Source: Lucinisca nassula
Taxonomy: Eukaryota; Mollusca; Bivalvia; Lucinida; Lucinidae
Assembly (NCBI GenBank): GCA_963580285.1
Contig: OY757010.1
Span: 223,839,234 to 223,903,233, forward strand
Direction: 5' to 3'
DNA length: 64,000 nucleotides
The translations under genes were made by a program, and so were the position numbers. Positions 12,951 through 64,000 of this stretch are shown here, piece by piece; position 1 is the stretch's first letter; every line of letters starts with the position of its first letter. The notes beneath the pieces are model-generated. The model worked only from the letters and a program-made list of their open reading frames with translations, was not told the DNA's origin and did no database searches.

Positions 12951-13023
12951 AACAATCAATCAGGTATTGAATTCTGTAGCAGTGCATGTGAGCCAATGCA
13001 AGTAAAAACCTACACACATATTT

Positions 13024-14525: not shown

Positions 14526-14529
14526 CAAC

Positions 14530-14809
14530 CATCACGAAAATATGTCTATACCAGTTTGACCCCATTGAAACCCACTTTTATTTAGTAAAACTGGGGTTTG
14601 CGGGTGTAAACCTTATTTTTCTTATTTCTGCTCTAAAATATGGATTGTGGGTACTCGTTAGAACCGCCTCATCGAGGCGAATCTAACGAGTACCCACAAT
14701 CTATATTTTGAGCAGGAATAAGAAAAATGTCACAATTTTTCATCCTAAAATTTTCTTTTTTTTCGGCGATAAAGGTTATATGTATTTATATAGGCATGTT
14801 TTCGTAATG
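14530..14809 (+). mobile_element. MITE-1, well-preserved hairpin
   Basis: Left end CATCACGAAAATATGTCTAT, right end ATAGGCATGTTTTCGTAATG. The centre is a long near-perfect palindrome, GTGGGTACTCGTTAGAACCG to its inverse, flanked by TATTTCTGCTC and GAGCAGGAATAAG. Good reference copy. Confidence 0.93.
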
Positions 14810-15114
14810 GATGAGAATTCAACAGCACGAAATAGCTCAAAAGCTATGCAGGTGATATTTAACCTAAACAGCATTATTGTTTTCCAACCCATCGGCTTGT
14901 GCACACAGAAACTCCAGGGGCCTTTATAAAATAGATTAGAAATTGACCGGAATAGAGTTTGATACAAATATAGGCTGTGGGTTGAAAGACCCAATCAAAA
15001 CTAATGAGGATATGTCGAGCCGTTCAGTTTACACAGCCGCTTTTTTCCTGTGCTGGCGTTATGTATAAGCGGTACAGCAGTACAGGTTACATGACATTGT
15101 ATATAAATTCAGAA

Positions 15115-15290
15115 AAGTATATGCTTGCCCGATTTCGTAAAATCTTTCTTCGTTTTAAAAAGATTTGGAACAACATAAAAATGTTGTACGACAACTGCAT
15201 ACATGTACATGGTAGTTAACGAAAACACTGTTGATAACGTTGTTTCCCGCTTTAATTGCACGCCGGTGGGCAAAGTGTTATTCCTCATCT
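15115..15290 (+). pseudogene. LINE-T RT C-terminal remnant
   Basis: The text TTTCGTAAAATCTTTCTTCG to TTTAATTGCACGCCGGTGGG parallels the LINE-T coding tail at 10969 and 63403, with frame-breaking changes (the IRQTA region is altered). No LINE-T UTR follows, so the copy is truncated at both ends. Confidence 0.75.
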
Positions 15291-15299
15291 GCACCAGCC

Positions 15300-16270
15300 A
15301 CTTACCCTCTACGACACATTGTAAGACATCAGAATAAGAGATCAGTCCTGCTGACCAGGTGTGGCGTATTTTTGTAATTTAATCGTCTTATATGAGGTGT
15401 GTGATATGAGTCAATCAAACAGCCGATTTAAAATAATGAGCCAAGAACAGGCTGTTTCGACTATGGTTTCATCCACAGGTTGTCATGTTCGATGCCCAGC
15501 GAGTGCGGACTGTCCGTATATCTACATGATTCTTTTGGGTTGAACGGCGCTTTTCATGCCAATTAGCAGTGCATGAATTGTTAGAGGAGGAACCAAATCT
15601 CTCGATTTGAGTTCCTCCTTTGGACATTCATGTAACTGCTGTGGCATTTGTCTTCGTGCATGTCATTAATTACATATCTGTCGAAACACGTAAAACTGAC
15701 AGTACTAAAGTTTGAGGTCATAGCCTTTTTCATATCTGTGCCAAATATTAGTTTTCATCTCATCTGCAAGCTCAATGTGATTTGAAACAATTAATTGGTC
15801 CTAAAACCTGAGTAATTGCTCTTAAAACCTGATTTAACATTTTAGAATTATAAGTATTCGAATGTCCTTTTCTTACCAAATCGGACATCGTAAAAGTAAA
15901 TCCTAATACGTTTCGTTATATTTTATACCCAGGTAAAAATTACAACTATTAATTTTAGTATTCCTAGACTTTTGTTTAATTTAAGCGTATAAAATGTACA
16001 TAGAATCGTGTGTTTTACATGCTTTATGGGGGCTCATATGAGAGATTAGTACTTTGCACTAAATATGTAATCCTCAAGAAATAAAGACATTATTATTGTC
16101 ATCATTTGACTGCGCCACCGAGGACAGCTGTAATTATAGCTTGAGTGGGTAGTACTATATCAGTTGCAGGTTTCGTCAATCATTACGTGCAGCCAGAGTA
16201 CACTGTGTATTACCCGTGTATATTCGGTAATTTTAAAATTTAATTTCATCATGAAAAATATTATTGTATA
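15300..16270. other. Unassigned stretch
   Basis: No gene recognised. A small hairpin at 15567-15625 (GAGGAGGAACCAAATCTC with its inverse AGTTCCTCCTT) is visible. AATAAA at about 16079 follows GATTAGTACTTTGCACTAAA and may be the 3' end of an old plus-strand retroelement; this is inference. Confidence 0.4.
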
Positions 16271-16274
16271 TGTA

Positions 16275-17420
16275 AAATAGTATTATAAGCATACTTTATT
16301 GCAACAATACATGACAAAACATGCATGCCGTGGGACTGGGTCACAAGTTCTCACAACATTAGTTAGGACCCTTTCCCTACATAGTCACATCGACAAAATT
16401 ACAGTTACATGACAATGACAAAAACATAAATAATTAGCATTCATGCTTTGAGTAGCAGTATATGGTAGAAATAAATAAATAAAATGTGTGTGTGTGTGTC
16501 TATATGTAATGGATGTGTCTTGGTGTTTCAGCGGGTTAGTAAAAGTCATCATGTGAAATGATTCAATGTTTAATCTTATAAGTTAGGAATGCACAGCACT
16601 GAAAATAATCATATTCTCACCAAACGATAGCTCTGTAATACCATAAAGTAGAATACCTAAATTAACAGGGTGAAAGGTGCGGGTTCCGCCTAACAGATTT
16701 AGTGCCTGATGCTCTGTCTATGGTCGAGCCTATCGGAGTCTAACTGTTGGTTTTCTTTTGCTCCAGCATTTCAGTAGTTTCTTGCTGTCGAGTCCTCACC
16801 GTTGTTTCCTCTCTGTGTTTGTTTGATTTTTGTGTTCTCGGAGATGTTGCACTGATGAGTTAGGAGGCCTTCATCCGGACTGAACAAATTATTTGTCTTA
16901 ATCGCGACGGAAGTAAGGGCGAGTATTGTGGCCGCTTAATATCGATTTAGCCCCCCTCCCCCCCCCAGTGGAATCCGTTTGTCTGACCGTTCCAAGGCCG
17001 TTTTTCTGTCGCGGTTTATTTTTGTTATGGTTTGTCTTTGGGTGTGTGTTTCGCTTATATTATTTTGTTTTGGATAGCCAGTTGGCCATTTTGTGGGAAA
17101 GTAACGTAACTGTCCTTTTGACTTTCGGCTATTGATGTTCCATTAGGGTCTAGTTATGTATGTGTTTCTTTCCCTTTGGTGTCACTGCTGGGAGCTTTGG
17201 GTTAATTGCATCGATTCCTTATCATTGCCTTCACTTCTATTTAACATATTTTGAACAACGAAAAAAGTAATGTTCAGCATCCTCATTTTCTAAGTTACAT
17301 TCACATACAGGATTAATTAATAAATGGTAAACATGTAAGTCACTGAACAAGTTACTTCATTTATTTCATATTCTACTATGCATGACATACAAATTTATCA
17401 CCTTGTATATAATATTTCGG
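16275..17420 (-). pseudogene. CR1/L2-like non-LTR retrotransposon, RT C-terminus, split by LINE-T
   Basis: Read on the minus strand, about 17360-17225 encodes CECNLENEDAEHYFFRC. This is the C-x-C...H...C motif found at the C-terminus of CR1/L2/Jockey-type ORF2 proteins. After the insertion at 16686-17238 the frame resumes as FHPVNLGILLYG and GENMIIFSAVHS, and stops at 16583. A 3' UTR follows to an inverted AATAAA signal near 16296-16301. Stops lie further upstream, so it is a dead remnant. The family assignment rests on this C-terminal pattern; the RT core is not recognisable. Confidence 0.7.
16686..17238 (+). mobile_element. LINE-T 3' UTR copy inside the CR1-like remnant
   Basis: From GTGCCTGATGCTCTGTCTAT through GCTGTCGAGTCCTCACCGTT, CTTAATATCGATTTAG and a C run to CATTGCCTTCACTTCTATTT. 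A short TAACA may be the target duplication. It interrupts the reading frame of the older LINE, so it is the younger insertion. Confidence 0.9.
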
Positions 17421-17744
17421 TACTCTATTATTGGTTGTGTAATGACTTTTTATTGCATATTTAATGATTAGTATAAGCAACCTTGCTTGTTTTCAAATCC
17501 TGTTGATCTTCCTAATATGTACATTCTTGTTATATATCTGTAATTGAAAAGAAGTAAATAAAATATTGTTTAAACTAAAAGAATTAAGATTAGAACGATT
17601 GAATAAATTCTCATCCAGGTCATTCTATAATAAAAGAAACGACGGTATACAGGAATTTCAAAATAACTCTGTTCTGCAGGAAGGGATAAGAATGTTATTA
17701 CGGTTTATTTGTGGATAATTAGCGATTTCTCTTTTGGGAGGAGT

Positions 17745-17882
17745 TTGAGTGTTTTAGTTTTACGTCTCTCCAACAGCTAAGGTCATACGGAGACGGGACC
17801 TCGGTTTAAAGACTCGTCCAAAAGTCTGGATAACCCCTGGTTAACAAGACGAGTAGCAAAACCACTACACTACGGAGGCTTC
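17745..17882 (-). mobile_element. SINE-C, internally shortened
   Basis: Matches the reverse of SINE-C: TTTTAGTTTTACGTCTCTCC, GGTCATACGGAGACGGGACC, then CACTACACTACGGAGGCTTC. A short TTTTGGG flanks both sides and may be the target duplication. The B-box region is deleted. Confidence 0.85.
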
Positions 17883-17919
17883 TTTTGGGGTGGAGGAATG
17901 AGATAATTAATATAAAAGC

Positions 17920-18037
17920 AGCCACCTCCCACAAAACGGCCAAAAGGCCATCAAAAACAAAATAATACAAGCGTCACATGCACCCAAAGAAAAACCACAA
18001 CAAAAACAAACCGCGACAGAAGAACCGCCCTGGAACG
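17920..18037 (-). mobile_element. LINE-T 3' UTR fragment
   Basis: CACCTCCCACAAAACGGCCA to GACAGAAGAACCGCCCTGGA is the middle of the LINE-T UTR on the minus strand. It lacks the usual 3' terminus, and MITE-1 sequence follows directly. Confidence 0.8.
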
Positions 18038-18540
18038 CCTTTTTCTATAAGAGGTAAACCTTATTTTTCCTATTTCGGCTCAAAAACATAGATGGTGGAT
18101 ACTCGTTAGAACCGCCTCATTGAGGCGGCTCTAACGAGTAACCAAAATCTATGATTTAAGCAGAAATAAGAAAAAAAAATAACAATTTTCCATCCTAAAA
18201 TTTTCGGGCTTTTTCTGTAGGTTCTTCTGTCACGGTTCCAGTGTAAATGCTTTCTGTCGTAGTTTATTTTTGTTATGGTTTGTCTTTGGGTGTTTGTGTC
18301 GCTTTTATTATGTTATTTTGGATAGCCTATTGGCCATTTTGTGGGAAAGTAACCGTCCTTTTGGCTTTCCGCTATTGATGTTTCCATTAGGGTCTGTTGT
18401 TTCATGTTTGTGTTTCTTTCTTTCTGGTGTCCCTGGTGGGAGCTGTGGGTTAATTGTATCGATTCCTGATCATTGCCTCAACTTCTATTTTTCGGCGGTA
18501 AAGTTTACAATGCATTTGTATAGGCATATTTTCGTAAGGT
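18038..18540 (+). mobile_element. MITE-1 split by LINE-T
   Basis: The left part has the central hairpin (ACTCGTTAGAACCGCCTCAT and inverse) up to CCTAAAATTTTCGG. The right part resumes TTTTCGGCGGTAAAGTTTAC and ends TATAGGCATATTTTCGTAAG. The left terminal part is lost. Confidence 0.88.
18208..18488 (+). mobile_element. LINE-T 3' end, 7-bp target duplication
   Basis: Flanked by TTTTCGG at 18201-18207 and 18489-18495, both derived from MITE-1. Contents: GGTTCTTCTGTCACGGTTCC to CATTGCCTCAACTTCTAT. The insertion is younger than the MITE. Confidence 0.88.
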
Positions 18541-19135
18541 AAGTTACAGACAAGTGGGGGTAATTGTCTTAGCCGAACAGAGAATGGTATTCCGCCTGCT
18601 CACAAATCTTAAAGGCTTTTGGTTAATTGTAAAGATTTATGAGCAAGACAAGCGAATGCAATGCATATTCTTGCGCCAGAAGTTTACATCACCAATCAGC
18701 GAGAGGGAGACTCTGCCTGTAAAATATGTTTCGTGATCAGTCTCTAAGAGAGAAAGTTGCCGGTTCCGGCGGGGATCAAACGCCGTGAGGGTCTCTTCAA
18801 CAAGCCAGAAGTGTCTTTAAACTGGTCTCCCGTCGCCATATGATTTACTGGTGGGTAAAATATAGATTCTAAATAACAACAATAAATGCCAGGATAAAAA
18901 AAACTGAAATACGAAACAAATGGAGATCAGTATGTAATGTCCGGTTTGAAGAAATGAATTCATTTGGCGGTTCCCTAGGGTCCCATACAGTGACTTTAGA
19001 AGCTATAGGACAATGAATAGCTGCCTTCAAGTGCCATTTTCGTGTCTGTTTTATTCGACTAATTTCAGCCGTGTCTTTAGAAACAAACACACGACACTCA
19101 TACGTGTTCAACAAGGATATAATGTAAGATAGACT
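18541..19135. other. No recognised feature
   Basis: Short open frames on both strands have no recognisable domain, and no repeat family of this window is evident. Confidence 0.4.
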
Positions 19136-19139
19136 GTTT

Positions 19140-19945
19140 AATTGCGAATATCAAATCTCAAATCTACAGACGGTTTACATTCGTATATCAGATCTACAGA
19201 TGTTATACATGCGTATATCAAATCTAAAAATGATTTACATGCGTATAACAAATCTACAAATGATTGACGTGCGTATACCAATCTAAAGACGGTAGGATTG
19301 TGGTCACGTAAAATCGATTTAAGCCCCCCCCCCACACACACACACACACACACTTCCAGTGGAATTCGTTTCCGCTGACCGTTGCAAGACGGTTCTTCTG
19401 TCGCGGGATCTTTTTTTTTTTGTTATGGTTTGTCTTTGGGTGTTTGTGTCGCTTATATTATTTTATTTTGGATAGCCTATTGGCCATTTTGTGGGAAAGC
19501 AACTGTCCTTTTGGCTTTCCGTTATTGATGTTTCCATTATGGCCTGTTGTTTCATGCTTGTGTTTCTTTCCCTTTGGTGTTTCTGATGGGAGCTGTGGGT
19601 TAATTGTTTCAATTCCTGAGCATTGCCTCCACTTCTACTTTACATGCGTATATCACATCTACAGGGAGTTGGCATTAGGTGTATCAAATTTACAGACGGT
19701 CAACATGCGTATATCAAATCTACAGATGAGTTACATACGTGTAAAACATCTATAGACGGTTTACATGCGTATATCTAATCTACAAACGGTTTACATGCCT
19801 ATATCAATTGTACAGATTACTTACATCCGTATATATTATCTATAAGCGGTTTATATGCATATATAATATCTACAGATTATCAAATCTACAAATGGTTTAC
19901 ATGCGCATATCAAATCTACAGATGGTTTACATGCAAACTTATTAG
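19140..19945. repeat. ~32-bp minisatellite interrupted by LINE-T
   Basis: Units of the form TACATGCGTATATCAAATCT plus ACAGATGGTT recur before 19291 and after 19641. Unit phase continues across the insertion (ACGGT before, TTACATGCG after). Later units are more variable. Confidence 0.93.
19292..19641 (+). mobile_element. LINE-T 3' end inside the minisatellite
   Basis: AGGATTGTGGTCACGTAAAA to GCCTCCACTTCTACTTT. A C run followed by (CA)n at 19325-19350 has expanded where other copies have only a C run. Confidence 0.92.
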
Positions 19946-20594: not shown

Positions 20595-20815
20595 AGTATA
20601 TTCTTTATAATCATGTGTAGGAAATTTACATTTTCTGGTGCAGTTTTTACATAACATTATTTTAGGAGGGAAACACCCTGATAAACATGTGCAGCCAGAC
20701 ACATATGGATAAGACGGTGTTATTAGTGTCATCAAATATGTTCTAGAAGGGATATCCTTTGGAAGCAAGGAATACACCATGGAACTGGAAAATATGGAGT
20801 GTACATGTTTTTTCT

Positions 20816-20861
20816 GGGCCAGACTAGCTAGTTTCGGTCAATTAGGCCTCATCAGTGACCC
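20816..20861 (-). ncRNA. Hammerhead ribozyme motif, type I, GUC site
   Basis: On the minus strand, in order: stem I GGGTCA; core CTGATGA; stem II GGCC-TAATT-GACC with one mismatch; GAAA; an 8-base palindrome CTAGCTAG as stem III; then TC and stem I partner TGGCCC (one G-U pair). All invariant core bases are present. The tiny stem III predicts activity as a dimer, as known for hammerheads of animal repeats. Confidence 0.85.
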
Positions 20862-21067
20862 TCAAATATTTTCAAAATTCAACAATGGAATCACTGATCC
20901 CAAAGGACAAGAAAATATAAACTACACTATGTTGTAGGGCAGGGAGACTTTTTACGGCCGCCACCCATTCCCAGACACCAGCTGTAGTGACGTCAAATAT
21001 GTTCTAGTAGGGATATCCTTTGGAAGCAAGGAATGGAACTGGAAAATATGGAGTGTACATGTTTTCT

Positions 21068-21113
21068 GGGCCAGACTAGTTAGTTTCGGATAATTAGGTC
21101 TCATCAGTGACCC
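21068..21113 (-). ncRNA. Hammerhead ribozyme motif, weakened stem II
   Basis: It has the same layout as the unit before it: CTGATGA, GAAA, the GUC site and stem I are kept. Stem II (GACC / ATCC) pairs poorly and stem III reads CTAACTAG, no longer a perfect palindrome. Probably reduced activity. Confidence 0.75.
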
Positions 21114-21189
21114 TCAAATATTTTCAAAATTCAACAATGGAATCAATGATCCCAAAGGACAAGAAAATATAAACTACACTATGATGTAG

Positions 21190-32076: not shown

Positions 32077-32350
32077 TATCAGCAGCACTGAGTCTGGCGG
32101 GACTGAGCCTGTGGGCAGCTATGCCGCCTGTCAGCAGCACCAGCTCTGGCGAGATTGGGCCTTCAAGCAGCAATGGCTCTGGTGAGACTCAGTTTGTCAG
32201 CAGCAATGACCCTGGCGAGATTGAGACTTTCAGCAACAATGACCCTGGCGAGATTGAGCCTTTCAGCAGCAATGGCTCTGGCGAGATTAAGCCTTTCAGC
32301 AGCAATGGCTCTGTCGAAATTGAGCTTGTCAGCAACAATGTCTGGCGAGA

Positions 32351-34267
32351 TTGAGCCTTTCAGCAACAATGGCCGCCCTGGCGAGATTGATCCTTTCAGC
32401 AGCAATGGCTCTGGCGAGATTGAGCCTTTCAGCAGCAATGGCTCTGTCGAAATTGAGCCTATCAGCAGCAAGCAATGGCCCTGGCCAGATTGAGCCTTTC
32501 AGCAGCACTGGCTCTGGCGAGATTGAGCCTTTCAGCAACAACGGCTCTGGCGAGATTGAGTCTGTCAGCAGCAAAGGCTCTGGCGAGATTGAGCCTTTCA
32601 GCAGTAATGGCCCTGGCGAGATTGAGCCTTTCAGCAGCAATGGCTCTGGCGAGATTGAGTCTGTCAGCAGTAAAGGCTCTGGCGAGATTGAGCCTTTCAG
32701 CAGTAATGGCCCTGGCAAGATTGAGCCTTTCAGCAGCAATGACTCTGGCGAGGTTGAGCCTTTCAGCAGCAATGGCTCTGGCGAAATTGAGTCTGTCAGC
32801 AGCAATGGCCCAGGCCAGATTGAGCCTTTCAGCAACAATGGCTCTTGCGAGAATGAGCTTTTCAGCAGCAATGGCTCTGGCGAGATTGAGCCTTTCAGCA
32901 ACAATGGCTCTGGCGAGATTGAGCCTTTCAGCAGCAATGGCTCTGGCGAGATTGAGCCTTTCAACAACAATGGCTCTGGCGAGATTGAACCTTTCAGCAG
33001 CAAGGGCCCTGGTCAGGTTAAGCCTTTCAGCAACAATGGCTCTGGCGAGATTGAGTCTGTCAGCAACAATGGCTCTGGCGAGATTGAGCCTTTCAGCAGC
33101 AATGGCTCTGGCGAGATTGAGACTTTCAGCAGCAAAGGCTCTGGCGAGATTGAGCCTTTCAGCAGTAATGGCCCTGGCGAGATTGAGCCTTTCAGCAGCA
33201 ATGGCTCTGGCGAGATTGAGTCTGTCAGCAGCAAAGGCTCTGGCGAGATTGAGCCTTTCAGCAGTAATGGCCTTGGCGAGATTGAGCCTTTCAGCAGCAA
33301 TGACTCTGGCGAGGTTGAGCCTTTCAGCAGCAATGGCTCTGGCGAAATTGAGTCTGTCAGCAGCAATGGCCCAGGCCAGATTGAGCCTTTCAGCAACAAT
33401 GGCTCTTGCGAGAATGAGCTTTTCAGCAGCAATGGCTCTGGCGAGATTGAGCCTTTCAGCAACAATGGCTCTGGCGAGATTGAGCCTTTCAGCAGCAATG
33501 GCTCTGGCGAGATTGAGCCTTTCAGCAACAATGGCTCTGGCGAGATTGAACCTTTCAGCAGCAAGGGCCCTGGTCAGGTTAAGCCTTTCAGCAACAATGG
33601 CTCTAGCGAGATTGAGTCTGTCAGCAACAATGGCTCTGGCGAGATTGAGCCTTTCAGCAGCAATGGCTCTGGCGAGATTGAGACTTTCAGCAGCAATGGC
33701 TCTGGCGAGATTGAGCCTTTCAGCAGTAATGGCTCTGGCGAAATTGAGTCTGTTAGCAGCAATGACCCTGGCGAGATTGAGCCTTTTAGCAGCAGTGGCT
33801 CAGGCGAAATTGAGCCTGTCAACAGCAATTGCTCTGGCGAGATTGAGCCTTTCATCAGCAATGGCTCTGGCGAAACTGAGCCTGTCAAAAGCAATGGCTC
33901 TGGCGAAATTGAGGCTTTCAGCAGCAATGGCTCTGGCGAGATTGAGCCTTTCAGCAACAATGGCTCTGTCGAGATTGAGCCTGTCAGCAGCAATGGCTCT
34001 GTCGAGATTGAGCCTGTCAGCAGCAATGCTCTGTCGAGATTGCGTCTTTCAGCAACAATTGATCTGGCGAGATTGAGCCTATCGGCTCCAATAGCTTTGT
34101 CGAGATTGAGCCTTCCAGCAGAAATGGCTCTGGCGAGACTGAGCCTTTCAGCAGCAATGGCTATGGCGAGATTGAGCCTGTCAGCAGCAATGGCCCTTGC
34201 GAGATTGAGCCTTTCAGCAGCAATGGCTCTGGCGAGATTGGGCCTGTCAGCAGCAATGGCCCGGTGA
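32351..34267 (+). CDS. Long repeat open frame (doubtful coding)
   Basis: A 638-codon frame made almost only of the 11-residue motif SSNGSGEIEPF (about 55 repeats). It would give an acidic, Ser/Gly/Asn-rich low-complexity protein, a composition seen in some secreted matrix proteins. Against coding: overlapping frames on both strands are equally open, the start codon lies within a repeat unit in a different phase, and there is no unique N-terminus. I list it only because transcription cannot be excluded from sequence alone. Confidence 0.12.
   Translation: MSLSATMAALARLILSAAMALARLSLSAAMALSKLSLSAASNGPGQIEPFSSTGSGEIEPFSNNGSGEIESVSSKGSGEIEPFSSNGPGEIEPFSSNGSGEIESVSSKGSGEIEPFSSNGPGKIEPFSSNDSGEVEPFSSNGSGEIESVSSNGPGQIEPFSNNGSCENELFSSNGSGEIEPFSNNGSGEIEPFSSNGSGEIEPFNNNGSGEIEPFSSKGPGQVKPFSNNGSGEIESVSNNGSGEIEPFSSNGSGEIETFSSKGSGEIEPFSSNGPGEIEPFSSNGSGEIESVSSKGSGEIEPFSSNGLGEIEPFSSNDSGEVEPFSSNGSGEIESVSSNGPGQIEPFSNNGSCENELFSSNGSGEIEPFSNNGSGEIEPFSSNGSGEIEPFSNNGSGEIEPFSSKGPGQVKPFSNNGSSEIESVSNNGSGEIEPFSSNGSGEIETFSSNGSGEIEPFSSNGSGEIESVSSNDPGEIEPFSSSGSGEIEPVNSNCSGEIEPFISNGSGETEPVKSNGSGEIEAFSSNGSGEIEPFSNNGSVEIEPVSSNGSVEIEPVSSNALSRLRLSATIDLARLSLSAPIALSRLSLPAEMALARLSLSAAMAMARLSLSAAMALARLSLSAAMALARLGLSAAMAR
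32700..33830. repeat. 561-bp higher-order repeat
   Basis: The marker GACTCTGGCGAGGTTGAG occurs at 32741 and 33302, 561 bp (17 units) apart. Neighbouring variants (CAGGCCAGATTGAGCC, TCTTGCGAGAATGAGC, GGTCAGGTTAAGCC) repeat in the same order. A block of 17 units was duplicated as one. Confidence 0.9.
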
Positions 34268-35229
34268 GATTGAGTCTGTCAGTTCCAATGCCTCTGGCGA
34301 TATTGAGCCTATCGGCTACAATAGCTTTGGCGAGATTGAGCCTTTCAGCAGCATTGGCTCTGGCGAGATTGAGCCCGTCAGCAAACATGGCCCTGGTGAG
34401 ATTGAGCTTGTCAGCAGCAATTGCTGTATCGAGATTGGGCCCGTCAGCAGCAATGGCTCTGATTGAGCCTGACAACAACAATGGCTCTGGCGAGACCGAG
34501 CCTGTTAGCAAAAATGGCTCTGGCGAGATTGAGCCTGGTAGCATCAATGGCTCTGGCGAGACTGAGTCTGTCAACAACAATGTCTCCGGCGAGATTCAGT
34601 CTTTCAACAGTAATGGCCCTGGTGAGATTGAGCTTAACAGAAAAAATGACTCTGGCAGGATTGAGACTGTCAGCAGCAATGGCTCTGGCGAGATTGAGTC
34701 TGTCGGTAACAATAGCTCTGGCGAGACTGGGCCTTTCAGCAGCAATGGCTCTGGCGTAATTGAGCCTTTCAGCAACAATGGCTCTATCGAGATTGAGCCT
34801 TTCGGCAGCAATGGCTCTGCCGAGATTGAGCCTGTCAGCTGCAATGGCGCTGGCGAGATTGAGCCTTTCAGCAACAATTGCTCTGGCGAGATTGAGCCTT
34901 TCCGCAGCAATGGCTCTGTTCTGATTAAGCCTATCAGCAGCAGTGGCTCTGTCGAGATTGAGCCTGTTAGCAGCAATGGTTTTGGCGAAATTGAGCCTTT
35001 CAGCAGCAATGGCTCTGGCGAGAATGAGCCTGTCAGCAGCAATGGCCCTGGCGAGATTGAGCCTTTCAGCAGCAATGGCTCTAGCGAGATTGCGCCTGTC
35101 AGCAGCAATGGCCCCGGCGAGATTGAGCCTTTCAGCAGCAATGGCTCTGGTGAGATTAAGCCTCTCAGCAGCAATGGCTCTGTCGAGATTGAGCCTTTCA
35201 GCATTAATGGTTCTGGTGGGATTGAGACT

Positions 35230-38200
35230 GAACCTGTGAGCAGCTATGGCGCCTGTAAGCAGCACTGGCTATGGTGAGATTAAACCTTTCAGCAGCAATG
35301 GCTCTGGCAAGAATGAACCTGTCAGCAGCAATGGGCTTGGCGAGATTGAGCCTTTCAGCAGCAATGGCTCTGGCGAGATTGGGCCTGTCAGCTGCAATGG
35401 CCCTGACGAGATTGAGCCTTTCGGTAACAATGGCTCTGGCGAAATTGAGTCTGTCAGCAGCACTGGCTCTTGCGAGACTAAGACTGACAGTAGCTATGGC
35501 GTATGGGGCCTGTCAGCAGCACTGGCTCTGGTGAGATTTAGCCTTTAAGCAGCAATGGCTGTGGCGAGATTGAGCCTGTCAGCAGCAATGGCTCTGGCGA
35601 GAATGAGCCTTTCAGCAGCAATGGCTCTGGCGAGATTGAGCCTGTCAGCAGCAATAGCCCTGGCGAGAGCCTTTCAGCAGCAATGGCTCTGGCGAGATTG
35701 AGCTTGTCAGCAGCAATGGCTCTGTCGAGATTGAGCCTTTCAGTAGCAATGGTTCTGGTGAGATTGAGACTTTCAGCAATAATGTCTCTGTCGAGATTGA
35801 GCCTGTCAGCAGCAATGGCTCTGTCGAGATTGAGCCTGTCAGCAGCAATGGCTCTGTCGAGATTGAGCCTTTCAACAGCAATGGCTCTGTCGAGATTGAA
35901 CCTTTCAGCAACAATGGCTCTGGCGAGATTGAGCCTTTCAGCAGCAATAGCTCTGGCGAGACTAAGCCTTTCAGCAGCAATGGCTCTGGCGTGACTGAGC
36001 CTTTCAGCAGAATGGCTCTGGCGAGATTGAGCCTGTCAGCAGCAATGGCCCTGGCGAGATTGAGCCTTTCAGCAGCAATGGCTATGGCGAGATTGGGCCT
36101 GTCAGCAGCAATGGCCCTGGCGAGATTGAGTCTGTCAGCACCAATGGCTCTGGCGATATTGAGCCTGACAACAGCATTGGCACTGGCGAGATTGAGCCCG
36201 TCAACAAAAATGGCCCTGGTGAGATTGAGCTTGTCAGCTGCAATGGCTATATCGAGATTGGGCCCGTCAGCAGCAATGGCTCTGATTGAGCCTGTCAACA
36301 ACAATGGCTCTGGCGAGACTGAGCCTGTTAGCAAAAATGGCTCTGGCGAGATTGAGCCTGGCAGCATCAATGGCTCTGGCGAGACTGAGTCTGTCAGCAA
36401 CAATGACTCCGGTGAGATTTAGTCCTTCAACAGTAATGACCCTGGTGAGATTGAGCCTAACAGAAACAATGACTCTGGCGAGATTGAGCCTGTCAGCAGC
36501 AATGGCTCTAGCGAGAATGAGCCTTTCAGCAGCAATGGTTCTGGTGGGATTGAGACTGAACCTGTGAGCAGCTATGGCGCCTGTTAGCAGCACTGGCTAT
36601 GGTGAGATTAAACCTTTCAGCAGCAATGGCTCTGGCAAGAATGAACCTGTCAGCAGCAATGGGCTTGGCGAGATTGAGCCTTTCAGCAGCAATGGCTCTG
36701 GCGAGATTGGGCCTGTCAGCTGCAATGGCCCTGACGAGATTGAGCCTTTCGGTAACAATGGCTCTGGCGAAATTGAGTCTGTCAGCAGCACTGGCTCTTG
36801 CGAGACTAAGACTGACAGTAGCTATGGCGTATGGGGCCTGTCAGTAGCACTGGCTCTGGTGAGATTTAGCCTTTAAGCAGCAATGGCTGTGGCGAGATTG
36901 AGCCTGTCAGCAGCAATGGCTCTGGCGAGAATGAGCCTTTCAGCAGCAATGGCTCTGGCGAGATTGAGCCTGTCAGCAGCAATAGCCCTGGCGAGAGCCT
37001 TTCAGCAGCAATGGCTCTGGCGAGATTGAGCTTGTCAGCAGCAATGGCTCTGTCGAGATTGAGCCTTTCAGTAGCAATGGTTCTGGTGAGATTGAGACTT
37101 TCAGCAATAATGTCTCTGTCGAGATTGAGCCTGTCAGCAGCAATGGCTCTGTCGAGATTGAGCCTGTCAGCAGCAATGGCTCTGTCGAGATTGAGCCTTT
37201 CAACAGCAATGGCTCTGTCGAGATTGAACCTTTCAGCAACAATGGCTCTGGCGAGATTGAGCCTTTCAGCAGCAATAGCTCTGGCGAGACTAAGCCTTTC
37301 AGCAGCAATGGCTCTGGCGTGACTGAGCCTTTCAGCAGAATGGCTCTGGCGAGATTGAGCCTGTCAGCAGCAATGGCCCTGGCGAGATTGAGCCTTTCAG
37401 CAGCAATGGCTATGGCGAGATTGGGCCTGTCAGCAGCAATGGCCCTGGCGAGATTGAGTCTGTCAGCACCAATGGCTCTGGCGATATTGAGCCTGACAAC
37501 AGCATTGGCACTGGCGAGATTGAGCCCGTCAACAAAAATGGCCCTGGTGAGATTGAGCTTGTCAGCTGCAATGGCTATATCGAGATTGGGCCCGTCAGCA
37601 GCAATGGCTCTGATTGAGCCTGTCAACAACAATGGCTCTGGCGAGACTGAGCCTGTTAGCAAAAATGGCTCTGGCGAGATTGAGCCTGGCAGCATCAATG
37701 GCTCTGGCGAGACTGAGTCTGTCAGCAACAATGAATCCGGTGAGATTTAGTCCTTCAACAGTAATGACCCTGGTGAGATTGAGCCTAACAGAAACAATGA
37801 CTCTGGCGAGATTGAGCCTGTCAGCAGCAATGGCTCTAGCGAGAATGAGCCTTTCAGCAGCAATGGTTCTGGTGGGATTGAGACTGAACCTGTGAGCAGC
37901 TATGGCGCCTGTTAGCAGCACTGGCTATGGTGAGATTAAACCTTTCAGCAGCAATGGCTCTGGCAAGAATGAACCTGTCAGCAGCAATGGGCTTGGCGAG
38001 ATTGAGCCTTTCAGCAGCAATGGCTCTGGCGAGATTGGGCCTGTCAGCAGCAATGGCCCTGACGAGATTGAGCCTTTCGGTAACAATGGCTCTGGCGAAA
38101 TTGAGTCTGTCAGCAGCACTGGCTCTTGCGAGACTAAGACTGACAGTAGCTATGGCGTATGGGGCCTGTCAGCAGCACTGGCTCTGGTGAGATTTAGCCT

Positions 38201-39095
38201 TTAAGCAGCAATGGCTGTGGCGAGATTGAGCCTGTCAGCAGCAATGGCTCTGGCGAGAATGAGCCTTTCAGCAGCAATGGCTCTGGCGAGATTGAGCCTG
38301 TCAGCAGCAATAGCCCTGGCGAGAGCCTTTCAGCAGCAATGGCTCTGGCGAGATTGAGCTTGTCAGCAGCAATGGCTCTGTCGAGATTGAGCCTTTCAGT
38401 AGCAATGGTTCTGGTGAGATTGAGACTTTCAGCAATAATGTCTCTGTCGAGATTGAGCCTGTCAGCAGCAATGGCTCTGTCGAGATTGAGCCTGTCAGCA
38501 GCAATGGCTCTGTCGAGATTGAGCCTTTCAACAGCAATGGCTCTGTCGAGATTGAACCTTTCAGCAACAATGGCTCTGGCGAGATTGAGCCTTTCAGCAG
38601 CAATAGCTCTGGCGAGACTAAGCCTTTCAGCAGCAATGGCTCTGGCGTGACTGAGCCTTTCAGCAGAATGGCTCTGGCGAGATTGAGCCTGTCAGCAGCA
38701 ATGGCCCTGGCGAGATTGAGCCTTTCAGCAGCAATGGCTATGGCGAGATTGGGCCTGTCAGCAGCAATGGCCCTGGCGAGATTGAGTCTGTCAGCACCAA
38801 TGGCTCTGGCGATATTGAGCCTGACAACAGCATTGACACTGGCGAGATTGAGCCCGTCAACAAAAATGGCCCCGGTGAGATTGAGCTTGTCAGCAGCAAT
38901 GGCTATATCGAGATTGGGCCCGTCAGCAGCAATGGCTCTGATTGAGCCTGTCAACAACAATGGCTCTGGCGAGACTGAGCCTGTTAGCAAAAATGGCTCT
39001 GGCGAGATTGAGCCTGGCAGCATCAATGGCTCTGGCGAGACTGAGTCTGTCAGCAACAATGACTACGGTGAGATTTAGTCCTTCAACAGTAAAGA
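35230..39095. repeat. 1,328-bp higher-order repeat, about 2.9 copies
   Basis: ATGGCGCCTGTA/TTAGCAGC recurs at 35246, 36574 and 37902, exactly 1,328 bp apart, with near-identical contents. 1,328 is not a multiple of 33, so each copy carries the same indels and the same frame breaks (GTGAGATTTAGCCTTTAAG). Copies differ by only a few bases. The third diverges near 39095. Confidence 0.95.
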
Positions 39096-39690
39096 CCCTG
39101 GTGAGATTGAGACTGTCAGCAGCAATGGCTGTTGAGAGACTGAGTCTGTCAGCAACAATGGCTCTGGCAAGATTGAACGTGTCAACAACAATGGTTCCAG
39201 CGAGACTGACCCTTTCAGCAGCAATGACTCTGGCGAGATTGAGATTGCCAGCAAAAATGGCTCTGGCGAGATTGAGCCCGTCAGCAGCAATGGCTCTGGC
39301 GAGATTGAGCCTGTCAACTGCAATGGCTCTGTCGAGATTGAGCCTGTCAGCAGCAATGGCTCTGGCTAGATTGAGCCTGTCAACAGCAATGGCTCTGTCG
39401 AAATCGAGCTTGTCAGCAACAATAGCTCTGGCGAGATTGAGCCTGTCGACAGCAATGGCTCCGTCGAGATTGAGCCTGTCAGCAGCAATGGCTCTGGCGA
39501 GATTGAGCCTGTCAACAGCAGCGGCGCTGTGAGATTGAGCCTGTCAGCAGCAATGGCTCTGGAAAGATTGCCTGTCAGCAGCAATGACTCTGTCGAGAAT
39601 GAATCTGTCAGCAACAATAGCTCTGGCGAGATTGAGCCTGTCAGCAGCAATGGCTCTGGAAAGATTACCTGTCAGCAGCAATGGCTATTG

Positions 39691-39980
39691 AGAATTTGCT
39701 GTATTGCTATTAATTTTTATTATTATTTTGGTGTCTTGGATTGGAAGTGTGTGGTAATTGTATTGATTCCAAGTCCTTTGGGATCATTTAGTCCACTCCG
39801 GAATTTTTAAAATATTTTAGGGTCACTTTTGATGCCTAATTGGCCGAAAATAGCTATTCAGGCCCAGAAAATGTTGCACTCTCAACGGTTTTCCGTTCTT
39901 TGTTGCAGTTCTTGCTATCAAAGGATTAACCTTTTTATAGAACATTTACAAATCATTACATGGATATGCTATCAAAATGC
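39691..39980. other. Array flank; possible LINE-T scrap and ribozyme-family scrap
   Basis: TTGGTGTCTTGGATTGGAAG and GTGGTAATTGTATTGATTCC loosely recall the LINE-T 3' end. TTTAGGGTCACTTTTGATGCC and TAATTGGCCGAAAATAG (39818-39850) recall the hammerhead block GGGTCACTGATGAGGCC...GGCCGAAAC, with the core lost. Confidence 0.45.
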
Positions 39981-44865: not shown

Positions 44866-45247
44866 TTTGTTTGTTTGTTTGTTTGTATTGGGACTTAACG
44901 GCCCAGTCAACACTTTTTAGGTCATTTTTGAGCCGGTCAGTTTATCCACACTTTGCCTGGGCAAGCTTATACGTAAGCGGTTTACCAGTACAGTGGACAT
45001 TCTTTCGCTATAGAAGCTGACAACTGCCCTTTTTGAATCAGTGGAAGGGATGATGGTGATGATTTTGTGTTTAACGATGCGTTAACTCTCTTTGTGGTTT
45101 ATAAGCTCAGTGGAAGGGAGAGAATGACCGTAGAAAAGATTTCATGATCAATCTCCACGAAAGAATGGTTGCCGACCCCGGCAGGTATCGAACCCGCGTC
45201 CTCCTGATCACCAGTCAGACGCGCATCCGACTGAGCTACCGAGGCAA
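44866..45247 (-). mobile_element. SINE-A with intact tRNA-like head and an insert
   Basis: Read on the minus strand: GCCTCGGTAGCTCAGTCGGA, anticodon-like region TGACTGGTGATCAGGAGG, B box GGGTTCGATACC, then body and CAAA tail (44866-44882). About 60 bp at 45048-45108 are foreign (TGATGATTTTGTGTTTAACG). Best-preserved SINE-A promoter of the window. Confidence 0.92.
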
Positions 45248-50642: not shown

Positions 50643-50818
50643 TACATTACGCAAACACGCCTATACAAATACATTGCCGCCTTTATCGCCGAAAAAAATA
50701 AAATTTCATGATGAAAAATTGTGATATTTGTCTTATTTCTGCTCAAAATATAGATTGTGGGCGCTCGTTAGAATCGCCTCATCGATTTTGGGGACTCGTT
50801 AGAACCGCCTCATCGACA
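50643..50818 (-). mobile_element. MITE-1, left half with duplicated palindrome arm
   Basis: CATTACGCAAACACGCCTAT to TAGATTGTGGGCGCTCGTTA, then a second arm GGGGACTCGTTAGAACCGCC. It stops at TCATCGACA. Confidence 0.85.
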
Positions 50819-50821
50819 CTT

Positions 50822-51642
50822 TATTATGACCCTCGCTGATTAGTCCTATCAGAACATGCCTGCCACCATGACTGTCGCTGATTAGTCCTATCAGAACATG
50901 CCTGCCACCATGACTGTCGCTGATTAGTCCTAGCAGAACATGCCTGACACTATGACCCTCGCTGATTAGTCCTACCAGAACGTGCCTGGCACTGTGACCC
51001 TCGCTGATTAGTCCTACCAGAACGTGCCTAACACTATAATCCTCACTGATTAGTCCTACCAGAAAGTGTTTGACACTATGACCCTCGCTGATTAGTCCTA
51101 TACCAGAACATGCCTGACACTATGATCTTCGCTGATTAGTCCTACCAAAACATGTCTGACACTATGACCCTCGCTGATTAGTTCTACCAGAACGTGCCTG
51201 GCACTATGAGCCTCGCTGATTAGTCCTACCAGAACGTGCCTGGCACTAATTATCCTCTTATAAACCTCCGTGGTGCAGTGGTTACGCTACCCGCCTTGTA
51301 AACCAGGGATAGCAGGATCGATCCCGGGCTTCTCCAGACTTTCGGATGAGTCTTGAAACCGAGGTCCCGTCTCCGTATGACCTTGGCTATTGGTGGCACG
51401 TAAAACTCAAACACTCACTCACTCACTTATTATCCTCGCTGATTATTCCTACCAGAACGTGTCTGGCACTATGAGTCTGCCTGACATTATGACCCTCGCT
51501 GATTAGTCCTACCGGAACGTGCCGGGCACTATGGTCCTCGCTGATTAGTCCTACCAAAACGTGCCTGGCCTATGATCTTCGCTGATTAGTCCTACAAGAA
51601 CGTGCCTGACACTAAGATCCTCGCTGTTTAGTCCTACCAGAA
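50822..51642. repeat. 42-bp minisatellite, interrupted by SINE-C
   Basis: Units hold CTCGCTGATTAGTCCTACCA and GAACGTGCCTGGCACTATGA. About 10 units precede and 5 follow the SINE at 51258-51428. It lies 180 bp upstream of the neuropeptide exon. Confidence 0.95.
51258..51428 (+). mobile_element. SINE-C with 9-bp target duplication
   Basis: ATTATCCTC at 51249-51257 and 51429-51437. Head CCTCCGTGGTGCAGTGG (A-box region), B-box-like GGATCGATCCC, end (ACTC)n. It interrupts the minisatellite, so it is younger. Confidence 0.93.
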
Positions 51643-51817
51643 CATCTTAAACAAATTTAAGGTGTTCGAGCCATTGACCTTTGACTGTTCGTTGCAGTAC
51701 TAGTAACTATATATGTTACTGAAGGCGTTCTACATAATTGAGCGGGGAATATTTGAAGTTTGTTGATAACTGTCGCCACCAAGTTAATTAAATGAACTTG
51801 TTTTTGTTATCGTTTCA

Positions 51818-51819: not shown

Positions 51820-51852
51820 TATAAAACGAGTGCACTCAAAACAGACACAACA

Positions 51853-52281
51853 ATGGTCAGTATGGCCTCCACTCTATCAGCTATAGTAATTCACAGTTTC
51901 ATCATAGTGTTAGCTCTCGAAACAGTCAGAGCATACGTTCCATATGTACCGACATCACATGACGTTGAATATGACGACGACGTCGATGTACAGCCGTACC
52001 AACACTCATCGGACGCCAACATGTTCTTTAGATATCTTAACTCTCTTCTGCTAGATAATTTTATAAATCGCCAAATGGCCAGGAATGATGATAGATACAC
52101 GCCAATAAAGGCATTGAAACGGGCGCCCTCTGACGAAGAACCCAGGAACTCTAAGGAAAAAAGAAAAGTGTTTTGGCAACCCCTGGGATATCTTCCCGCA
52201 GGTGTTCATCCCAATGGGAACCAGGCTTCAGCTGGGGGTGGTAGCGCCGGAAGAGGACCTGTTTTCCGATATGGAAAATAA
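51853..52281 (+). CDS. NKY-like amidated neuropeptide precursor
   Basis: A 142-residue secreted prohormone, encoded in one exon. Residues about 5-27 form a hydrophobic signal peptide (AIVIHSFIIVLALETVRA). An acidic spacer follows (EYDDDVDVQ), then FFRYLNSLLLDNFINRQMA. Two Lys-Arg sites (ALKR and KEKR) precede the predicted bioactive peptide, about 36 residues, beginning KVFWQPLGYLPAGV and ending RGPVFRY. The final Gly-Lys gives a C-terminal Tyr-amide. An N-terminal Lys, an FWQPxGYLPA core and a C-terminal Tyr-amide are what I recall for the NKY family of molluscs and annelids, where it is thought to act as a neural signalling peptide through an amine-type secretory pathway. The ATG context (CAACAATGG) is good. 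A second ATG lies three codons on. No clear AATAAA was found in the next 200 bases. The assignment is from memory of the motif; the prohormone nature itself is clear from the sequence. Confidence 0.8.
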   Translation: MVSMASTLSAIVIHSFIIVLALETVRAYVPYVPTSHDVEYDDDVDVQPYQHSSDANMFFRYLNSLLLDNFINRQMARNDDRYTPIKALKRAPSDEEPRNSKEKRKVFWQPLGYLPAGVHPNGNQASAGGGSAGRGPVFRYGK

Positions 52282-52698: not shown

Positions 52699-53152
52699 CA
52701 TTACGCAAACACTCCTATACAAATACATTGCCACCTTTATCGCTGAAAAAAAAAAGAAAATTTTATGATGAAAAATTGTGATATTTGTCTTATTTCCGCT
52801 CTAAAATATAGATTGTGGGTACTTGTTAGAACAGCCTTGATTTTTCTTATTTCTGCTCCAAATATAGATTGTGGACACTCGTTAGAACCGCCTCATCGAG
52901 GCGGTTCTAACGAGTACCCATAATCTATATTTTAGAGCAGAAATAAGAATTTTTTTCTTATTTCTGCTCTAAAATATAGATTGTGGGTACTCGTTAGAAC
53001 AGCCTCGATTTTTCTTATTTGTGCTCCAAATATAGATTGTTGGCACTCGTTAGAACCGCCTCATCGAGGCGGTTCTAATGAGTACCCACAATCTATATTT
53101 TAGAGCAGAAATAAGAAAAATAAGGTATACCCCCGGACACCCCAGTTTTACT
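52699..53152 (-). mobile_element. MITE-1 with expanded central hairpins
   Basis: After the left end CATTACGCAAACACTCCTAT the segment TTATTTCTGCTC...AATATAGATTGTGG with ACTCGTTAGAACCGCCTC occurs four times in this orientation, and full palindromes close at about 52925 and 53100. The right part stops at CCCAGTTTTACTATATATGA. An internal duplication of the hairpin region is likely. Confidence 0.88.
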
Positions 53153-57464: not shown

Positions 57465-57817
57465 AAATCATTGTTACTAAACTTTTTCAGCTGTAAAGCA
57501 ATACCACATATCAACTGACCTTTCACATAAATATACAACATGGATCATGCGATTTTGTCACTGTGACCTTAACCTTCTGTGTCAGCAGCGGCAGCCACAT
57601 GATTGTAACAATACATTAGCTGCTGTAGGGTATATAATATGATAAATCAGACTTCAATTATTATTAAATTAAATTATTGGTTTAGACTCATATTCTAGAC
57701 AGGTTTTTAATAATTTGGACCCCATTTTGATTTATATCAGTCTTTGAATCGACTGCCAATTCGAAATTCGCAAAATTGCAGTATATTTCCTCTGGCTTTC
57801 TTTGCCGGATCATTACA

Positions 57818-57863
57818 GGGTCACTGATGAGGCTTTATTAGCCGAAACTACGTAGTATGACCC
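57818..57863 (+). ncRNA. Hammerhead ribozyme, type I, GUA site (canonical)
   Basis: Stem I GGGTCA (57818-57823); CTGATGA (57824-57830); stem II GGC-TTTATTA-GCC (57831-57843); GAAA (57844-57847); stem III palindrome CTACGTAG (57848-57855); T-A (57856-57857), then stem I partner TGACCC. All helices pair perfectly and all invariant bases are present. Predicted cleavage is after 57857. The 8-base stem III has no loop room as a monomer, so cleavage should be favoured in a dimeric fold. Confidence 0.93.
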
Positions 57864-58200
57864 ATCTTCTTTCTTATGAATGTTTTCATTGCTCTTAAAG
57901 GAACTCATTTTTGATTTTTATTTGCCTTCACTGCAGCTGGTGTTGTGCCGTGTGGCGGCCGTAAAACGTCTCCCCGTACATCAACCATAGTGCAGTTTAT
58001 ATTTTACTTTTGGTCCTTTGAGATCAGCGTGAATATTCTGAGTAATCAAAAATAAATTATTGGTTTAGACTCATATTCTAGACAGGTGTTTAATAATTTG
58101 GACCCCATTTTGATTTATATCAGTCTTTGAATCGACTGCCAATTCGAAATTCGCAAAATTGCAGTATATTTCCTCTGGCTTTCTTTGCCGGATCATTACA

Positions 58201-58246
58201 GGGTCACTGATGAGGCTTTATTAGCCGAAACTACGTAGTATGACCC
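58201..58246 (+). ncRNA. Hammerhead ribozyme, second copy, identical
   Basis: Base for base the same as 57818-57863, one unit (383 bp) downstream. Cleavage at both sites would release one 383-nt RNA, which could circularise. Confidence 0.93.
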
Positions 58247-58304
58247 ATCTTCTTTCTTATGAATGTTTTCATTGCTCTTAAAGGAACTCATTTTTGATTT
58301 TTAT

Positions 58305-58620
58305 TCAATCCAATCCAGTTGATGAAGAGCAAAACTTTATAATAACTATTCGGTGTATTTGCAGCAGCAGTCACATGACTGGAACTAAACTTTGTCCATT
58401 TGAAGGAATACCAGTTGGGCATTATAAGTTTACAATTAAAGAAACAAACCCAATAGAAAACTAGAAGCCCAAGTGGGCCAGAAATTATTCACCTGGATGA
58501 GGGCGGATCATCATATCTTACATTGTTTCTTGGTGGCCACCTTGTCTCTCAGATTACATTGCCTTTAGCAATTCTGAATCTGCGTGTTGCCTTGATGCTA
58601 CTGAGTATGTTTTTGTGCAG
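58305..58620. other. No recognised feature
   Basis: Intron-like spacer. The last bases (GTATGTTTTTGTGCAG) form the acceptor of the exon below. Confidence 0.4.
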
Positions 58621-62582: not shown

Positions 62583-62838
62583 ACATTACGCAAACACGCT
62601 TATACGAATACATTGCCACCTTTATCGCCGAAAAAATGAAAATTTCATGATGAAAAATTGTGATATTTTTCTTATCTCTGCTCAAAATATAGATTGTGGA
62701 CACCCGTTAGAACCGCGTCATCGAGGCGGTTCTAACGAATACCCACAATCTATATTTTAGAGCAGAAATAAGAAAAATAAGGCATACCCCTGAAACCCCA
62801 GTTTTAGTATATAAAAGTGGGGTTCAAGGGGGTCACAA
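62583..62838 (-). mobile_element. MITE-1 truncated by LINE-T
   Basis: CATTACGCAAACACGCTTAT left, intact central palindrome, outer hairpin CCCCAGTTTTAGTATATAAA, then stop at GGGGGTCAC, where LINE-T begins with no right terminus. Confidence 0.92.
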
Positions 62839-63402
62839 AAGGGAAAGAAACACGAACATAGAAAACTAGAAGTGAAGACACGGATCAGGAATCAATACAG
62901 TTAACCCATACCTCTCATCAGAGACACCAAACGGAAAGAATAACTAAACCCTAATAGAACATCAATAGCGGATAGCCAGAAGGACAGTTACTTTCCCTGA
63001 AAAAGGCCAAAATATTATCCAAAACAAAAAAGATATAGCGATACACACACTAAAAAAATAACATAACAAAAATAAACCGCGACAGAAGAACCGTCATAGA
63101 ACGGTCAGTGAAAAGAATTTCACTTGGCTTAAATCGATTTTACGTGGCCGCAATCCTCGCCCTTGATTCCATCGCGACTTAGACAATTAAATTGTTCAGT
63201 CCACATGAAGGCTTCCTAACTCATTAGTGCAACATCTCCGAGAACACAAAAATCAAACAACCACAGAGATGAAACAGCGGTGATGACTCGACAGCAAGAA
63301 ACCACTGAGTAGCTGGAGGAAAAGAAAGCCAACAGTTAGACTCCGCTGGGCCCAACCAGAGACAGAGCATCAGGTATCAACCAACTTTACATAAGTAAGC
63401 AT
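62839..63402 (-). mobile_element. LINE-T 3' UTR, continuous with coding tail
   Basis: GAAAACTAGAAGTGAAGACA to GAGACAGAGCATCAGGTATC. A short stretch of the same family (AAAGGGAAAGAAACACGAAC) precedes it at 62838, so a partial second copy is joined. It continues into the coding tail at 63403. Confidence 0.93.
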
Positions 63403-63905
63403 TTACGCTAGAATCGTCATAGAATCTGAGGACTGACCCACCGGCGTGCAATTAAAGAGGGAAGCAACGTTATCAACTGTGATTTGATTAACTACCATGT
63501 ATGCAGTCTGTCGAATAATATTTATGTTGTACCCAATCTTTTTATATCGAAGAATGATTTTACGAAAATGGGTACTGAAATCTATGGAAGTATATATTTT
63601 TTTTCTGAAATAATATACTAAGTTACCATAAAATTCGGGTTCCGATAGATCTTGTTTCAGAAGAGGTTTAAGTCCAACATTGAATTTTGAAATTAAATCA
63701 GAATAACGTCTATGAAATTTAGAAAAGGCTTTGGGTAGTTTATGATATCGATAACAATGATAGAGAAATTTAGCAGTTAACAATTTAGTACGAGTGTTGA
63801 AGTCAGTTACATGACTAGACACTCTGACAAATCGAATTAATTGCGAAATATAAACGCCATAGGATGCCACTCGAGGAACATCACCATCCAAGAAAGGAAA
63901 ATTTA
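63403..63905 (-). pseudogene. LINE-T reverse-transcriptase protein, last ~160 codons
   Basis: This is the C-terminal part of the protein of the window's LINE. The frame reads NFPFLDGDVPRVASYGVYIS (just before the first Met), then QLIRFVRVSSHVTDFNTRTK, YRYHKLPKAFSKFHRRY, and ends with VGQSSDSMT, shared with the copy at 10969. I recognise this as the conserved C-terminal block of RT proteins found in many marine invertebrate genomes. The polymerase core lies further 5' and is not present. The copy has a continuous frame but is 5'-truncated at about 63905, so it cannot be active. Confidence 0.85.
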
Positions 63906-63907
63906 GT

Positions 63908-64000
63908 TTTTATGATAAACGCGATGAGTTTGATTTTGAGATTGGAAATTTTCCTTTCTTGGATGGTGATGTTCACGTGCGGTATCCTATGGCGTTTATA
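63908..64000 (+). pseudogene. Second LINE-T coding fragment, head to head, running off the window
   Basis: Plus-strand frame YDKRDEFDFEIGNFPFLDGD overlaps, in inverse orientation, the start of the minus-strand copy (63849-63905 against 63944-64000). The two arms differ at several bases (GTTCACGTGCGG against GTTCCTCGAGTGG), so they are not a fresh inverted duplicate. Confidence 0.85.

Follow-up and report, generated by a model that had tools for sequence, protein, structure and literature searches.

The closest described systems are the retrozymes of animals and plants and the hammerhead-bearing Penelope-like elements. The available text of PMC7229834 describes mussel, coral and axolotl elements with circular RNA in tissues, and counts ∼5,000 hammerheads in the mussel Mytilus galloprovincialis, in repeats of 350–390 bp; duplications of animal retrozymes, if present, are given as > 4 bp. 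As enzymes that reverse-transcribe the circular RNA, the same text proposes those of Penelope-like elements or LINEs, without settling how synthesis is primed; the route and enzyme by which animal retrozymes return to DNA are a standing question there. Plant LTR retrozymes, again in that text, have a type III hammerhead, LTRs with PBS and PPT, circles of 600–800 nt and 4-bp duplications. For PAc of Anolis, the available part of PMC11167929 reports that synthesis by the enzyme begins at an internal site beyond the hammerhead and depends on RNA 3′ of that site; in vitro, mutating the hammerhead left insertion unimpaired, and the substrate was mainly unprocessed RNA.

Here we describe family A of the bivalve Lucinisca nassula, a previously undescribed, very abundant metazoan non-LTR retrozyme. 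We analysed a stretch of 64,000 nt from contig OY757010.1 (the window). A sequence-only reading had called one tandem unit in it retrozyme-like, and this is borne out: it matches the elements in the available text of PMC7229834 in having a type I hammerhead whose stem III is short and palindromic, units of 383 bp in tandem, and copies dispersed by the thousand. Compared by description with that text, the mussel elements also share a low GC content and a non-LTR tandem arrangement; their units measure 350–390 bp versus 383 in family A, and their ∼5,000 hammerheads compare with 14,769 exact motif copies in L. nassula. Unlike the mussel account, family A has a fixed 3′ end by a conserved module and a hammerhead-free sister family, and its putative duplications are short. 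As regards the features by which metazoan retrozymes are recognized, family A has a type I hammerhead with complete core, a unit in the ∼150–450 bp range and a GC content of 0.376 (below 45–50%), and it is non-coding, as judged from frames of at least 150 aa, and free of LTRs; as to the dimer-to-multimer organization, its elements comprise 0.26–5.19 units, many copies having < 2 units and the window copy 1.67.

Plant LTR retrozymes, in the same available text, resemble family A in their hammerhead repeats, their non-autonomy and the circular RNA intermediate proposed for them, but place a type III hammerhead in LTRs, whereas family A has an open stem I and no constant terminal repeat. With the Penelope-like Poseidon of Anolis, compared by description with the available part of PMC11167929, family A shares a type I-like hammerhead, full and partial tandem copies and AT-rich targets. 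The internal start lies 85–92 nt past the cut in the Anolis element, versus 65 nt for the putative start in family A and ∼90 nt for that in a sister family, B; RNA 3′ of the start is needed in the former, and a module lies 3′ of the end in the families here. Unlike Penelope-like elements, family A has no reverse transcriptase or GIY-YIG frame (none of at least 150 aa), and stem III is present. The best account of the family A copies, as those of a metazoan non-LTR retrozyme and at a probability that we put at about 0.78, is a fixed-site reverse transcriptase start on monomer-derived, probably circular RNA, with the enzyme rolling round its template.

Results

Two identical hammerheads in the window

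Two 46-nt type I hammerhead motifs of identical sequence lie 383 bp apart in the window:

57818–57863, forward strand: hammerhead motif 1, type I; 58.3 bits, E 8.1e-16 with the family B model; predicted cut after 57857
58201–58246, forward strand: hammerhead motif 2, type I; 58.3 bits, E 8.1e-16 with the family B model; predicted cut after 58240

In both, stem I is GGGTCA/TGACCC (6 bp), stem II is GGCT-TTATT-AGCC (4 bp) and the core is CTGATGA plus GAA. Stem III is the palindrome ACTACGTAGT, with 3 bp counting A15.1-U16.1 and the tetraloop ACGT. Because stems II and III are loop-closed and stem I is an open helix, the topology is type I. The cleavage-site residue is A in both motifs, so that the predicted cuts fall after A57857 and A58240. 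The claim of two identical motifs with a complete core, paired stems I and II and a palindromic stem III, 383 bp apart, thus agrees with the sequence.

The Rfam scan suggested by the sequence-only reading came out otherwise. At the gathering threshold no hammerhead was found in the window, and at E ≤ 10 Hammerhead_3 alone appeared (20.3 bits versus a cut-off of 48.5, E 0.44), the type I model being absent from the list. That reading had named two outcomes as refuting it, one of them the lack of a match above threshold; since no Rfam match reaches threshold, this one has formally occurred. A model built from five family B motifs and run on the window does find the motif (E 8e-16). It also yields six further hammerhead-like motifs, two of which are members of the training set. 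The other hammerhead elements of the window, which go unmentioned in the sequence-only finding, are as follows:

20732–21183, reverse strand: sister retrozyme insertion, family B, unit of 252 nt; ends read by eye
21068–21113 and 20816–20861, reverse strand: family B hammerheads (family B model)
13465–13938, reverse strand: decayed relative, family C, with three hammerhead-like motifs in a 215-nt tandem array
39820–39865, forward strand: single decayed hammerhead-like motif (family B model, 47.5 bits)

A match to the family B model shows kinship and structural fit of the predicted family A ribozymes, not catalysis. The family B copy in the window ends ∼90 nt past its predicted cut, and in L019 and L026 the aligned family B copies break off at a common unit position (query 117 and 115).

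Applied to the fetched sequence (595,488 strand-bases), a strict structural hammerhead descriptor gave 127 sites, versus 0 once that sequence was reversed; some of the 127 are counted twice, because L001–L008 overlap L009–L016 and L084 overlaps the window. A chance motif was ruled out, the reversed controls being 0 for this descriptor and for the exact 46-mer alike. Hammerhead covariation over eight rows was not above shuffles, and the 93.3% of cells that are paired express fit to the structure, not covariation. The fold of 126 nt around the first hammerhead was no better than shuffles (z 0.39); the 383-nt monomer folds better than shuffles (z −2.5).

Copy number and the window insertion

The exact 46-mer copies are divided almost equally between the strands (7,304 + 7,465) in 2,926,205,003 bases, and the reversed 46-mer has 0 copies in the whole genome. 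Our sample of family A consists of 75 fetched regions, all selected for an exact hammerhead and all on contig C1 (first-listed places), plus the window copy, giving 76 loci (L009–L084). L001–L008 duplicate L009–L016 and were left out of the end-mapping and divergence counts. L050 and L060 share flanks; L060 was dropped in the flank-match, start-versus-cut and conservation tests and kept in the end-mapping and divergence counts. Elements of at least 60 nt were counted after mapping to a majority consensus, whose unit 383 was set by rotation to window position 57923. The insertion in the window is made up as follows:

57666–58305 (640 bp), forward strand: retrozyme insertion, family A, 1.67 head-to-tail 383-nt units, truncated on the 5′ side and ending at unit 382, the fixed 3′ end of the family
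57858–58240, forward strand: 383-nt monomer, GC 0.376, presumably released by double cleavage
58240–58305, forward strand: 65-nt tail from the hammerhead cut to the fixed 3′ end
57924–57998, forward strand: conserved module adjoining the fixed 3′ end on its 3′ side, putative reverse-transcriptase start and recognition site

The module arms in this copy are ACTGCA (57930–57935) and TGCAGT (57991–57996). A direct repeat of 257 nt, 99% identical, surrounds the hammerheads (57666–57922 and 58049–58305), and the element is therefore 1.67 units, not a clean dimer; of the dimeric tandem unit first claimed, the 383-bp head-to-tail units stand and the dimer does not. These terminal repeats are the product of the 1.67 units, such repeat length varies between copies, and no constant LTR-like terminal repeat exists across the mapped family A copies. 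No stop-to-stop frame of at least 150 aa overlaps 57666–58305. The window copy (L084) has a possible flank match, TTCAAT, 8 nt from its 5′ start.

Several other features of the window were recorded. A 7.5-kb variable-number array of 33/66/99-nt repeats, open in several frames, occupies 32126–39686, with a GC content of about 0.52 versus 0.38–0.40 nearby. An ORF at 51838–52278 (forward strand) has no Pfam match; by eye, from its GK end and dibasic sites, we take it to resemble a secreted peptide precursor. The sole Rfam match of the window at the gathering threshold is a tRNA (RF00005) at 45173–45245 on the reverse strand (36.9 bits). Arrays of 42-nt tandem repeats and a palindromic repeat around GATTGTGGGCACTCGTTAGAACCGCC lie at 50753–51643 and 52783–53117, and at 62680–62800 on the reverse strand; the repeat around GATTGTGGGCACTCGTTAGAACCGCC recurs in many fetched loci, with families L046 and L047 inserted beside it.

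Nearly all mapped family A copies share one 3′ end, and 5′ ends are scattered

Within the 76 loci we mapped 86 elements, 78 of which end at unit 375–383, and 75 of these at 381–383 (77 of 85, with 74 at 381–383, when the duplicate L060 is left out). The remaining eight have other end positions; L035, L038, L048 and L072 contain one each, and L064 and L079 two each. The fixed 3′ end lies about 65 nt beyond the hammerhead cut (unit 317) and has the sequence TTTGATTTTTAT plus one or two T, after which the flanks are unrelated. The 5′ starts are spread across the whole 383-nt unit. Lengths of the 78 fixed-end elements range from 0.26 to 5.19 units (mean 1.38), with 43 elements of at least one unit, 16 of at least two and six of at least three. 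As a post hoc observation, many family A 5′ stops lie near the module, 32 of the 86 starts being at unit 1–96 (29 without three alignment breaks at unit 1).

A word search of the available text of PMC7229834, PMC7761336 and PMC8490949 found nothing on retrozymes that have a fixed 3′ end or are truncated at the 5′ end. Likewise, no title or abstract start reporting a fixed retrozyme 3′ end was found in a search that covered few subscription papers and hence speaks only weakly to novelty; the fixed 3′ end with scattered 5′ ends of retrozyme copies may thus be new here.

Matches between the two flanks of 76 elements exceeded the re-paired expectation (at least 5 nt, 21 versus 9.9 expected; at least 6 nt, 10 versus 2.5; at least 7 nt, 4 versus 0.7; at least 8 nt, 0; p 0.003 by re-pairing), and a minority of elements may therefore have short target duplications. 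An earlier test on 43 elements gave a mean score of 3.58 versus 2.77 re-paired, with no score of at least 10. L029 shows an imperfect flank match (22/27), which may be a pre-existing repeat. At L028:1245–4168 two family A elements face each other head to head, and the sequences flanking their 5′ ends are similar; the pair could be an insertion from both strands of one target.

The end pattern bears on two accounts that do without retrotransposition of a circular RNA. If family A were satellite DNA, unequal crossing-over would grow and shrink its arrays and the hammerhead would be a relic; the units are indeed tandem and homogeneous within arrays, but the copies lie scattered over both strands (7,304 and 7,465) and are mostly short, they have a constant 3′ end with unrelated flanks, and crossing-over leaves single-unit and sub-unit insertions unexplained, which makes this account very improbable. 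Hardly credible, in our judgement, is a Helitron-like rolling-circle DNA transposon or an ordinary SINE: one end is fixed and many copies are short, as either would have it, yet the 5′ ends are scattered, the 3′ end, TTTTTATT, does not resemble those of Helitrons, in-phase multi-unit copies are not expected of an ordinary SINE, and the strict hammerhead descriptor gives its 127 sites versus 0 reversed.

Arrays are homogeneous

Divergence between units was 2.2% of sites within an array versus 4.8% between arrays, and 50% of variants were shared within an array versus 4% between arrays. Within-array divergence was below between-array divergence in 36 of 39 multi-unit elements (p 3.6e-7). L028, with 5.19 units, has no private variant at 383 compared sites, and its insertion is for this reason probably recent; family A as a whole has probably been recently active. 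Mixed arrays occur as well, L031 and L063 having 37 private or partial sites each. The array homogeneity is consistent with a single circular monomer behind each array. On a linear monomer whose 5′ end is the cut, synthesis from the fixed start could run for at most ∼65 nt, and a once-cut dimer would give 1.17 units beginning at the cut. Only two of 85 starts lie within 3 nt of the hammerhead cut, versus 1.55 expected; being near expectation, they indicate that templates ending at the cut are not favoured. The further claim that monomer-derived RNA is copied by a reverse transcriptase thus draws support from the fixed 3′ end, the scattered 5′ ends and the homogeneous arrays.

A second way to the same internal start is a template in the form of an uncleaved multimeric linear transcript, copied through several units, with the hammerhead a passenger or used at another step. 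This accords with the Penelope-like enzyme in the available part of PMC11167929, which begins at an internal site beyond the hammerhead and in vitro accepts unprocessed RNA. Each copy would then be shorter than its source and arrays would shrink, yet there are 5-unit arrays with few or no private variants (L028, L056). Half of all variants are shared within an array, which also counts against a linear template, though a homogeneous young source array could give the same. We consider a linear template unlikely, if worth keeping in mind.

Among 52 array units that were not needed for ascertainment, mismatches to the consensus affected 1.0% of catalytic-core sites, 1.9% of hammerhead sites and 2.6% of the remaining sites, and the core was intact in 47 of the 52. 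As the units within an array are interdependent, we read this as mildly favouring selection on the ribozyme.

A module shared with a hammerhead-free family

A module of ∼75 nt directly 3′ of the fixed end is common to families A, B and D, which are otherwise different. Its core, GTGGCGGCCGTAAAA, is identical in all four aligned rows, and D is up to 95% (typically 90–94%) identical to A over 66 nt of it. The arms pair as ACTGCA/TGCAGT in A, ACTACA/TGTAGT in B and CTGTA/TGCAG in D; on four rows, 23 of 24 cells of the helix are paired, one pair with a compensatory change, and covariation did not beat shuffles (89 of 500 reached the score). A 24-nt piece of the module had no exact match in viral_contigs. 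From its place beside the fixed end in three families, the module may recruit the reverse transcriptase.

Family D is found, with module, fixed 3′ end and tandem units, at the following places:

L048:811–1235 and L048:2125–2199: family D examples
L085–L096: family D examples

The 65-nt block of family D has 1,439 genome matches at ≤ 3 mismatches (709 + 730) and 0 when reversed, several of the listed places being 267–281 nt apart. Its 3′ end is visible in 11 of 13 loci, in all 11 at unit 273–276, while L090 and L093 run off the fetched stretch. The A/D comparison gave no counterpart of the hammerhead in D, where a structured block of ∼105 nt replaces it. Two partial D units, in a stretch of 321 nt, fold better than shuffles (z −2.6). 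Little can be read from conservation within the block, because the loci were reached via near-identity to the block or via neighbouring A elements.

Across 12 D loci the hammerhead model matched no D unit in full; its sole strong match (L094:450–477, 38.8 bits) lies just past a D end in a B-type stretch, and the other five had ≤ 10 bits. Rfam at E ≤ 10, on the D stretches of L048 and on L090, returned weak matches to non-ribozyme families only. An HDV-like fold was rejected as a candidate, a home-made descriptor giving 0 on either strand, though this test is crude because 7 of 30 shuffles gave some match; twister and pistol were compared with family D only by eye. At L094:221–651 a D unit ends at the fixed 3′ end and, ∼10 nt on, a 5′-truncated B-type unit begins inside its hammerhead, perhaps by a template jump between two families or a nested insertion.

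Family D shows the same footprint without a hammerhead, and the ribozyme may therefore not be needed, which speaks for the linear template. Tentatively, and with considerable doubt, we raise the idea that D is a retrozyme circularized via an undescribed self-cleaving RNA, the ribozyme being an exchangeable cassette on a common reverse-transcriptase-recruiting chassis.

An abundant reverse-transcriptase-like element was seen in 13 of 77 sources (76 loci plus the window), in the window at 62863–63909 (reverse strand) and in further stretches at ∼10741–19641 and 34008–34761 (coordinates of either strand). A 3′ UTR of ∼543 nt is conserved in this element, which has a fixed 3′ end of its own near ACTTCTATTTT (26 aligned stretches, 10 in the window). 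No hammerhead was seen at this 3′ end, and the fragments had no Pfam match and no meaningful PDB match. The element may be related to Penelope-like elements; we do not claim it as the partner of family A.

Discussion

What we observe is the structure and copy number of the motif, a fixed 3′ end with scattered 5′ ends, homogeneous arrays and a module shared between families. We propose that fixed-site reverse transcription of a monomer-derived, probably circular RNA would link them as follows. Multimeric transcripts would self-cleave at the hammerhead, and the 383-nt monomers would be closed into circles. A reverse transcriptase supplied in trans would recognize the hairpin module and begin synthesis inside the RNA, always ∼65 nt beyond the cut and probably with cut target DNA as primer. 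Having circled the RNA for 0.3 to > 5 turns, the enzyme would stop, and the resulting insertions would share a 3′ end, differ in their 5′ ends and carry near-identical tandem units.

Against this explanation we count the eight of 86 ends that lie elsewhere, the mixed arrays, the lack of an Rfam match at threshold, family D without a hammerhead, the apparent duplications, short and in a minority of elements, the covariation that is not above shuffles, the selection of all family A loci by an exact hammerhead and from contig C1 and, from the available part of PMC11167929, the hammerhead mutants that were unimpaired in vitro.

A fixed start site, an adjoining module and thousands of young copies would together permit a direct test of binding and priming with defined RNA. 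The hammerhead-free family D is either a candidate for a new RNA processing element or a sign that the hammerhead is dispensable for spread.
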